Positions 24,009-27,090 of a stretch of 64,000 nucleotides of DNA are shown piece by piece. Numbering within the stretch: position 1 is the first letter of the stretch; each line of letters begins with the position of its first letter. Position numbers and translations under genes: made by a program. The stretch comes from Thermoleophilia bacterium (GTDB lineage Bacteria > Actinomycetota > Thermoleophilia > Miltoncostaeales > Miltoncostaeaceae): contig SHVE01000009.1 in assembly GCA_009694365.1 (NCBI GenBank), positions 1-64,000 on the forward strand, written 5' to 3'. Under the pieces are notes generated by a model, which worked only from the letters and a program-made list of their open reading frames with translations, had not been told where the DNA came from and did no database searches.

Positions 24009-24421
24009 CAGGTGCGGGTGGTGGTGTTACGCGTGCCGACCGGGCCGTCGCGGAACGGATCCGTGATTCCCCAGAGGGCCAGATTCGCGGCGATCAGGGT
24101 GACGGTGCCCGGGATTAGCCAGATGCCGCCCGATGCGAGGAACCCGCCGCATCCGCCGACGTACATGAGGGCGCTGCCCAGGCCGGGCGATCGGCGCACC
24201 ACCACGACGCCGCCCACGGTAATGAGGGCCATGAGCACCGTGATCGCGGCCCCCCAGCCGCCGCTGCGGGGCGAGAACATCTCGAAGACGCCACCGAACG
24301 ACGTGACGCCGAGTGCGACGACCATGGCGAGGACGCTGAGCACGGCACCGACGACACCGAGCACGAAACACACCTGACGAAGGCGCACCTGCCGGGCCGG
24401 GGTGGGGTCGTCGGTGCTCAC
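24008..24421 (-). CDS. Four-span membrane protein (DUF4064-like)
   Basis: The 137-residue hydrophobic protein has four predicted membrane segments: VCFVLGVVGAVLSVLAMVVA, an ITVLMALITVGGVVVV span, a Gly-rich MYVGGCGGFLASGGIWLI, and VTLIAANLALWGI. The pattern recalls DUF4064 proteins. Function is unknown. GTG 24421 overlaps the stop of the dehydrogenase gene upstream (GTGA), and its own stop overlaps the M42 start, so it is co-expressed with both. Confidence 0.8.
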   Translation of the reverse strand: MSTDDPTPARQVRLRQVCFVLGVVGAVLSVLAMVVALGVTSFGGVFEMFSPRSGGWGAAITVLMALITVGGVVVVRRSPGLGSALMYVGGCGGFLASGGIWLIPGTVTLIAANLALWGITDPFRDGPVGTRNTTTRT

Positions 24422-25818: not shown

Positions 25819-26007
25819 ATGGCCACCGACGGACAGCCCTCACGCCCGCTCGCCATTGCGCTGGTGGTGCTCGCAGCCCTCGCGTTCATCGGGGTGCTGG
25901 CTGGTCTCGCAATCGGTCGCATGGATCTCGTGGGGATCTCCGCCGTGGCGCTCGTGGGTCTGTGGTTTGGCCTCAGGTGGATCCCGCGCGCAGGTCACCG
26001 GCGCTGA
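25819..26007 (+). CDS. Small two-span membrane protein
   Basis: The 62-residue protein starts with a short polar head and then has two hydrophobic spans (IALVVLAALAFIGVLAGLAI and VGISAVALVGLWFGLRWI), ending in an Arg-rich tail. It is unrecognised. The ATG is supported by a TACGGT hexamer 6 nt upstream; the longer open frame before it is out of character. Its last 35 bp overlap the 3' end of the convergent VKOR gene. Confidence 0.6.
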   Translation: MATDGQPSRPLAIALVVLAALAFIGVLAGLAIGRMDLVGISAVALVGLWFGLRWIPRAGHRR

Positions 26008-26401
26008 TCACGCGCCACACCGCCACGGTGAGGGAGAAGACCATGACCACGAGACTCGCCAAGCACCACGGGCAGAGCGCGTGGATGAGGGCGATCTCGG
26101 CGTAGAGGAGCCAGAGCGAGAAGAGCAGGCCACCGATTCCCATGACGACGGCGAGCAGCCGTCCGGGGAATCCGGGGATGAACGCGGACGCCAGGATCAG
26201 TGCGTAGGTGATGAGTCCGAGGTAGGACAGCGACACGCCGAAGATTTCGGCATACCGCGATGACTGCACCGTGGCGCAGCCGCCGCCGATGATGCAAGTC
26301 GGGGTGCCCCCCGAGAACCGCTCGTACGACAGGTAGCCGGTGATTACCATCCCGATTACGGCCCCGACAGCCTGCGCGATGCGCAGGCGGGTGAGGATCA
26401 G
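25973..26401 (-). CDS. Vitamin K epoxide reductase (VKOR)-family protein
   Basis: The protein is a four-helix VKOR: YLSYERFSGGTPTCIIGGGC loop, SLSYLGLITYALIL, and the CPWC redox pair in ALCPWCLASLVVMV. It reoxidises a periplasmic thiol oxidase with quinone. The only ATG (26350) would cut helix 1 in half. Upstream the frame continues as RIAQAVGAVIG with no ATG, GTG or TTG, to a CTG at 26401 that overlaps the DsbA stop as CTGA. A CTG start is therefore inferred. It pairs with the DsbA-like gene as an oxidant/recharger unit. Confidence 0.82.
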   Translation of the reverse strand: MILTRLRIAQAVGAVIGMVITGYLSYERFSGGTPTCIIGGGCATVQSSRYAEIFGVSLSYLGLITYALILASAFIPGFPGRLLAVVMGIGGLLFSLWLLYAEIALIHALCPWCLASLVVMVFSLTVAVWRVISAGDLRAGST

Positions 26402-27090
26402 CGCACGGCCTCGATCGCGCTGAGGATCGCCGCGGGCTCAACGGCGCCGGTGATCATTCTCGTGCCCCCGGGTCCCGTAATCATGAACGTGGGCGTGGCG
26501 TTCACATTGGCGGCCTTGGCACGGTCAGCGGCGGCGAAGACGGCTGTCCCGACGGCGTCCGTCGTGCGTGCGGTCGTCCAGGCCGCCACGTCGAGTCCGG
26601 GGACTGCGGCCGCGATGGCCGTGAGCAACTCCTCCGTGGCCCATCCCGAGTTCTCGGCGCCCTGGTTGGCGTAGAGGATCTCGGTGAAGGGCCACGCTTT
26701 GTTCTGCTGCGCCGCCGCCGCGATCGCGATGGCGGCCGTGGACGAGTCGGAGCCGATCAAGGTGAGAGGCTCGATGACGAGCGTGGCCGTGCCGTCCGTG
26801 ACGGGCCCCGTGATGATGTCGGGGATGGTCCGGTCACTGGCGTTCTTGCACACCGGGCACTGGGGGTCGATGAATTCCGTCACGGTGACCGGAGCCCCTG
26901 GCGTGCCGATCGCGAAACCGGACTGCGGCAAGCTCTTGGTCAGTGCCACCGCGGTGTCCACGCCCGTCAGGGACGAGGCCGATGGCAAGTCGGACGAACT
27001 GCCGCCGGAGGCACTCATAACCACGAGTACCACCACGACGATGACGGCGATGAGGGACGCCCCGCTGATAGTCCATGCCCTACGTGACAC
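26398..27090 (-). CDS. DsbA-like membrane-anchored thiol-disulfide oxidoreductase
   Basis: A single N-terminal anchor (IAVIVVVVLVVMSASGG) precedes a thioredoxin fold with TEFIDPQCPVCKN (CPVC active site), an inserted helical region, and the cis-Pro segment NATPTFMI. It should introduce disulfides into exported proteins and be reoxidised by the VKOR encoded directly after it. The start is GTG 27090, with GAGGAG six nt upstream. Length (230) is normal for actinobacterial DsbA-like proteins. Confidence 0.9.
   Translation of the reverse strand: MSRRAWTISGASLIAVIVVVVLVVMSASGGSSSDLPSASSLTGVDTAVALTKSLPQSGFAIGTPGAPVTVTEFIDPQCPVCKNASDRTIPDIITGPVTDGTATLVIEPLTLIGSDSSTAAIAIAAAAQQNKAWPFTEILYANQGAENSGWATEELLTAIAAAVPGLDVAAWTTARTTDAVGTAVFAAADRAKAANVNATPTFMITGPGGTRMITGAVEPAAILSAIEAVR

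Follow-up and report, generated by a model that had tools for sequence, protein, structure and literature searches.

Which codon starts the VKOR-family gene that follows a DsbA-like gene on the minus strand of this window, the whole 64-kb stretch of Thermoleophilia DNA that was analysed? The earlier note, made from the letters alone, had proposed a CTG that overlaps the stop codon of the DsbA-like gene. The features on which the question turns are listed below.

25973..26401, minus strand: VKOR-family gene (PF07884) as read from CTG, 142 codons plus a TGA stop
26348..26350, minus strand: ATG, the earliest standard start in the VKOR frame, judged to be internal (codon 18, within predicted helix 1)
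26398..26401, minus strand: CTGA, a 4-nt overlap of the proposed CTG start with the TGA stop of DsbA (from sequence and genus conservation)
26398..27090, minus strand: DsbA-like thioredoxin-fold gene with an N-terminal hydrophobic segment, a CPVC motif, a GTG start and a TGA stop
26409..26412, minus strand: GAGG, a Shine-Dalgarno-like motif 7 nt 5′ of the CTG (from sequence)
26438..26440, minus strand: TGA inside dsbA, the upstream limit of the open VKOR frame (from sequence)

The dsbA–VKOR junction

The VKOR reading frame is open over 26437..25973 of the minus strand. Upstream of ATG 26350, it contains no ATG, GTG or TTG back to its own stop at 26440–26438, and gene calling restricted to these three codons therefore returns a protein of 125 residues from ATG 26350. 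The CTG at 26401–26399 and the A at 26398 form CTGA, and the TGA contained in it (26400–26398) terminates the DsbA-like gene. Both the open, startless frame and the overlap are thus present in the sequence as the earlier note had described them.

The VKOR protein matches PF07884 with an E-value of 3e-24 and a score of 86.1 bits, against a cut-off of 27.5 (Pfam profiles). The upstream protein matches PF13462 (6.8e-19) and PF01323 (1.6e-7). The observed link between the two genes is their adjacency; a role of VKOR as a quinone-linked re-oxidiser of DsbA is putative. The solved bacterial VKOR structures (3kp9, 4nv2, 4nv5 and 4nv6) belong to the same fold family, and have four cysteines and a DsbA/thioredoxin partner. 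However, those entries (VKORC1/thioredoxin domain protein) are single chains, whereas here two overlapping genes are found, with the thioredoxin part first.

The solved chains 4nv6 and 3kp9 align with the CTG-start protein from residue 7 on. An AlphaFold model of this protein, built on an alignment of 17 genus sequences, places helix 1 at residues 2–29, with mean pLDDT values of 81, 83 and 71 for successive blocks across residues 1–30 and an overall mean of 75.1. A start at ATG 26350 would therefore cost 16 of the 28 helix residues, in agreement with the earlier estimate that about half of helix 1 would be deleted.

Overlaps of the same 4-nt geometry are frequent in the window, as had also been noted: home-made ORF calls gave 11 GTGA, 5 ATGA, 2 TTGA and 4 CTGA. 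In three of the four CTGA the second codon is ATG (TGATG), so that the one at 26401 is the only CTGA listed in the window that needs CTG as a start. Neighbouring minus-strand genes are also chained by overlaps, at 24011 (TGATG) and 24421 (GTGA).

Conservation of the junction in the genus and in sister genera

The earlier note had suggested an alignment of orthologues at the junction as a check of the CTG start. Of 20 genus genomes searched, 18 gave a VKOR match, including all 13 of good quality; the two without a match are 64% and 67% complete. All 18 carry CTGA in the VKOR frame, and at each of these loci an upstream open frame with a C..C motif ends at the same TGA. G010 and G015 are identical at the junction, so that the number of independent lineages is slightly lower than 18. 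The distance from the CTG to a conserved LR(I/V) motif is longer by two codons in four genomes and by four codons in three, and the frame is always kept.

No standard codon is shared by all of these loci. Its earliest occurrence is at codon 18, 45, 12, 56, 37, 17, 17, 8, 29, 18, 8, 14, 14, 45, 45, 49, 10 and 49, respectively, that is, at codons 8–18 in ten loci, at codon 29 or later in eight and at codon 37 or later in seven. None of the 18 loci has a standard codon before codon 8, and the other 17 lack an ATG equivalent to that at 26350. Upstream of the CTG, 16 of 18 loci have no in-frame standard codon; those of G014 and G003 are at least 60 codons away, inside dsbA.

The stretch preceding ATG 26350 appears to evolve as protein, since its pattern of differences over the three codon positions (0.194/0.117/0.473 for codons 5–17, all pairs within the genus) resembles that of the body of the gene (0.223/0.106/0.381 for codons 18–139). 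The loop cysteine pair and the CxxC pair (Cys36, Cys42, Cys110 and Cys113) are invariant in all 18 sequences.

Eight VKOR matches were obtained from the family outside the genus, of which one (G022, E=8e-4) was left out as its frame gave no VKOR-like sequence. The seven remaining genes, from sister genera, all have ATG, GTG or TTG near the N-terminus, and in one of them (G032) an in-frame CTGA is also present, with GTG three codons further. The CTG is constant within the genus, and the standard starts of the sister genera lie near the same place but not at the identical codon. The orthologues support initiation at CTG, as had been proposed, and the CTG start looks derived in the genus.

Predicted CTG starts in other genes and the frequency of CTGA overlaps

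Predicted CTG starts are kept in at least three genes besides VKOR. A Maf homologue (PF02545; G000:C10:16779, minus strand) has CTGA at codon 1 in all 19 matched genus genomes, and an RNase E/G homologue (PF10150; G000:C10:9324, minus strand) has it in all 19 genus loci that cover the N-terminus. A DCC1-like thiol-disulfide oxidoreductase (PF04134; G000:C6:25725, plus strand) starts with CTGA in each of 15 matched genomes, among 20 searched; two of the 15 also have ATG at codon 4. This is the second gene of disulphide chemistry with a CTGA start.

Outside the genus, codon 1 of Maf is CTG in nine, GTG in seven, ATG in one and another codon in three of 20 family genomes, a count that leaves out one fragment and in which the CTG of G025 and G029 is not part of an NTGA overlap. 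For RNase E/G, 12 of 22 non-genus family genomes were read, with CTG in ten and TTG in two. Because CTG is exchanged for GTG, ATG or TTG at one and the same codon in these two genes, it behaves as would be expected of a true start. Three of the RNase E/G genes (G030, G063 and G065) have their CTG 28 nt beyond the first base of the preceding stop codon, together with a purine-rich, Shine-Dalgarno-like stretch, which suggests that CTG is also used without an overlap.

The genus data alone are weaker for RNase E/G, since GTG is found at codon 7 or 9 in 17 of 19 genus loci and a standard codon at least 43 codons upstream in 10 of 19. Four of the 12 non-genus family genomes have no standard codon among the codons examined around the CTG. 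In other families of the class, none of the 20 genomes read (of 87 matched) has CTG at codon 1 of RNase E/G; nine have ATG or GTG at codon −2 or 2, and 11 have a longer, uninformative N-terminal extension. This long extension is found in class families f2 and f3 (11 genomes read) and is absent in f4, f6 and f8.

The background frequency of such junctions was surveyed in 464 kb of the source genome (the window and 20 further stretches, home-made ORF calls). NTGA overlaps comprise 50 GTGA, 36 ATGA, 19 CTGA and 3 TTGA. Of the 19 CTGA, 11 take the form TGATG and another four are followed by a standard codon at codons 3–6; the rest include VKOR, Maf and RNase E/G. Among TGA-ending genes, the base before the TGA is C in 74 of the 128 without an overlap, compared to 19 of 108 with an overlap (11 of them TGATG). 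CTG is therefore strongly avoided as a start, yet not excluded. By the same count, C before TGA is the default state, so that a conserved C is by itself weak proof. The last dsbA codon in the genus is AGC in 14 genomes and CGC in four, with C preceding TGA in 18 of 18, and part of the CTGA conservation could stem from the choice of codons in dsbA.

When a CTG-only junction is defined by the absence of a standard codon from codons 2–6 and from up to 20 codons upstream, such junctions account for 5 of 109 NTGA overlaps in G000 and 8 of 131 in G018, both of the genus, and for 6 of 101 in G030 and 8 of 131 in G043, both outgroups; several per genome have, by eye, a plausible later standard start. 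As the genus does not exceed the outgroups in this raw rate, the habit may extend beyond the genus. By-eye candidates for CTG starts in the outgroups are a RecF-like gene in G043 (C1:54216, minus strand; next standard codon at 63) and a GlpD-like gene in G030 (C1:336252, minus strand; next at 22). Among 145 non-overlapping reciprocal-best ORF pairs of G000 and G018, 22 were flagged; on inspection by eye, a non-standard start is required in just two of them, VKOR and the DCC1-like gene, the remainder having natural later starts or being antisense frames. For the gene of IF3 (infC), used as a control, all 17 matched genomes share a standard GTG at one position, and the approach thus recovers ordinary starts.

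Alternative explanations and the proposed initiation at CTG

Four other explanations of the junction can be weighed against these data. A single base call in a metagenome-assembled genome could hide a GTG, and the earlier note had held such an error, concealing a GTG or ATG, against its own proposal. The identical CTGA in 18 separate genus assemblies means that a sequencing or assembly error cannot explain the junction, and we consider it extremely unlikely. The VKOR start could instead be the first standard codon (ATG 26350 here), with half of helix 1 missing. This is what a caller limited to ATG, GTG and TTG reports, and a codon between 8 and 18 is available in ten of the 18 loci. Its position is not conserved, however; in the seven loci where it falls at codon 37 or later the whole of helix 1 would be removed, in G005 together with the first cysteine pair, and codons 5–17 are under coding constraint. 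We therefore regard this start as very improbable. A different non-standard codon close to the junction, such as codon 2 (ATC) or codon 3 (CTC), could also serve as the start. This gains some plausibility from Maf and RNase E/G, in which codon 2 is always ATC in the genus, so that TGATC is one base from TGATG. In VKOR, however, codon 2 is ATC in only two of 18 genomes and otherwise ACG, ACC, AAC or AAT; codon 3 also varies, and codon 2 of the DCC1-like gene may be ACC, ACA, ACT, ACG, AAC or ATC. Since GTG or ATG in Maf and TTG (in two genomes) in RNase E/G occupy codon 1 elsewhere in the family, codon 1 marks the start position, and a start at a neighbouring codon is very improbable.

A programmed −1 frameshift near the end of dsbA would produce a DsbA–VKOR fusion for which VKOR needs no start codon, an option that the earlier note had left beside reinitiation. 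It is compatible with the VKOR frame upstream of the CTG, which is open at 17 of the 18 genus loci and stays so for at least 40 codons at 12 of them. At an AUGA overlap in M. tuberculosis, expression is reported to be mainly by termination-reinitiation, with a frameshifted fusion in addition (PMC11260477). On the other hand, G002 has TAG immediately 5′ of the CTG in the VKOR frame, a stop lies 9–12 codons upstream in five further genomes (G000, G007, G018, G015 and G010), and the final 13 codons of dsbA contain no slippery heptamer of the form X_XXY_YYZ in any of the 18. A fusion would also set the exported DsbA domain right before helix 1, whose N-terminus is expected from VKOR topology to be cytoplasmic. 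These observations disfavour the frameshift, to which we assign little probability as the explanation of the locus, although some genomes may make a minor amount of a fusion.

Published data on CUG argue against a CTG start, as its efficiency is described as very poor. CTG is an allowed table-11 start that is rarely used; the figures given are an output of 0.86% relative to AUG in E. coli and a share of 0.024% among annotated bacterial starts (PMC11497404). In a mycobacterial selection with a strong Shine-Dalgarno sequence, CTG is reported as not enriched (0.03%, compared to 9.8% for ATT; PMC4633059), and a reconstruction of start-codon changes reports four switches to CUG from 68,906 ancestral AUG, GUG or UUG starts (PMC5622118). 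In contrast to the very rare and very weak bacterial CUG starts of PMC11497404, those predicted here are kept genus-wide in four genes, and that of RNase E/G through much of the family. A literature search by titles found neither conserved CTGA starts nor CTG starts of this lineage as the subject of a paper.

Taking these lines together, we consider it highly likely, on comparative sequence grounds, that VKOR starts at CTG 26401, with probable reinitiation after dsbA, and is made as a separate product of 142 residues; the CTG start is very probably genuine and evolutionarily stable. Ribosomes finishing dsbA at the TGA of CTGA would reinitiate on the overlapping CTG with initiator tRNA, possibly aided by the purine-rich GAGG within the end of dsbA. 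The resulting VKOR would have an intact helix 1 and would begin with formyl-Met rather than Leu. Given that CTG is weak as a start in other settings, VKOR is probably less abundant than DsbA, and such a yield would suit a membrane enzyme whose task is the re-oxidation of many DsbA molecules. The sequences themselves show that standard starts are missing, that CTGA and the frame are kept, that the codons before ATG 26350 are constrained as coding sequence and that conserved CTG codons recur at the starts of other genes; we infer actual initiation at CTG, its coupling by reinitiation, the lower yield and the purpose of that yield.

The arrangement resembles published NTGA termination-reinitiation systems (PMC6728339, PMC10666635 and PMC11260477) in its −1 frame, its 4-nt overlap and its Shine-Dalgarno-like sequence inside the upstream gene. 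As described, those systems (see also PMC3887535) concern ATGA, GTGA and TTGA, and a term search of PMC6728339 and PMC10666635 returned no mention of CTG. At dsbA–VKOR, the geometry is known from the sequence, whereas the coupling is putative.

Pairing with an assumed anti-Shine-Dalgarno tail was estimated for the region before the CTG. The duplex energy is −5.9 kcal/mol in the source genome, and 15 of 18 VKOR relatives reach −5 kcal/mol or lower, compared to 616 of 2000 random genomic 18-mers; the motif is weak in the other three. With the same assumed tail, the median energies are −5.9 kcal/mol for VKOR, −6.6 for Maf and −8.3 for RNase E/G, compared to −3.0 for random 18-mers, but the sample's 19 CTGA junctions taken together have a median of −3.3, near the random value. 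As GAGG also codes for conserved residues of DsbA, its presence does not count as independent evidence.

An altered initiator tRNA was also considered. Three CAT tRNAs are present among 30 scanned of the 44 tRNA loci of G000, and one of these loci, L282, bears the initiator marks of an unpaired first pair and a GGG:CCC anticodon stem. This likely initiator is ordinary, with no M1-like change, and a relaxed tRNA therefore does not explain the CTG start.

A broader reading, which we advance only tentatively, is that CUG may be a stable and regularly used start throughout the family, chiefly at CUGA overlaps but also free of overlap, although the initiator tRNA looks ordinary. Either the initiation machinery would discriminate less against CUG, or post-termination ribosomes on CUGA would bypass the usual start-codon check.

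Annotation restricted to ATG, GTG and TTG would truncate genes of this kind. VKOR would lose half of helix 1, and Maf and the DCC1-like protein would lose conserved N-terminal core in several genomes. The conserved CTG starts, predicted genus-wide in four genes and for RNase E/G in most of the family genera examined, would offer natural systems in which to ask what normally bars CUG as a start and whether this check is relaxed by reinitiation.
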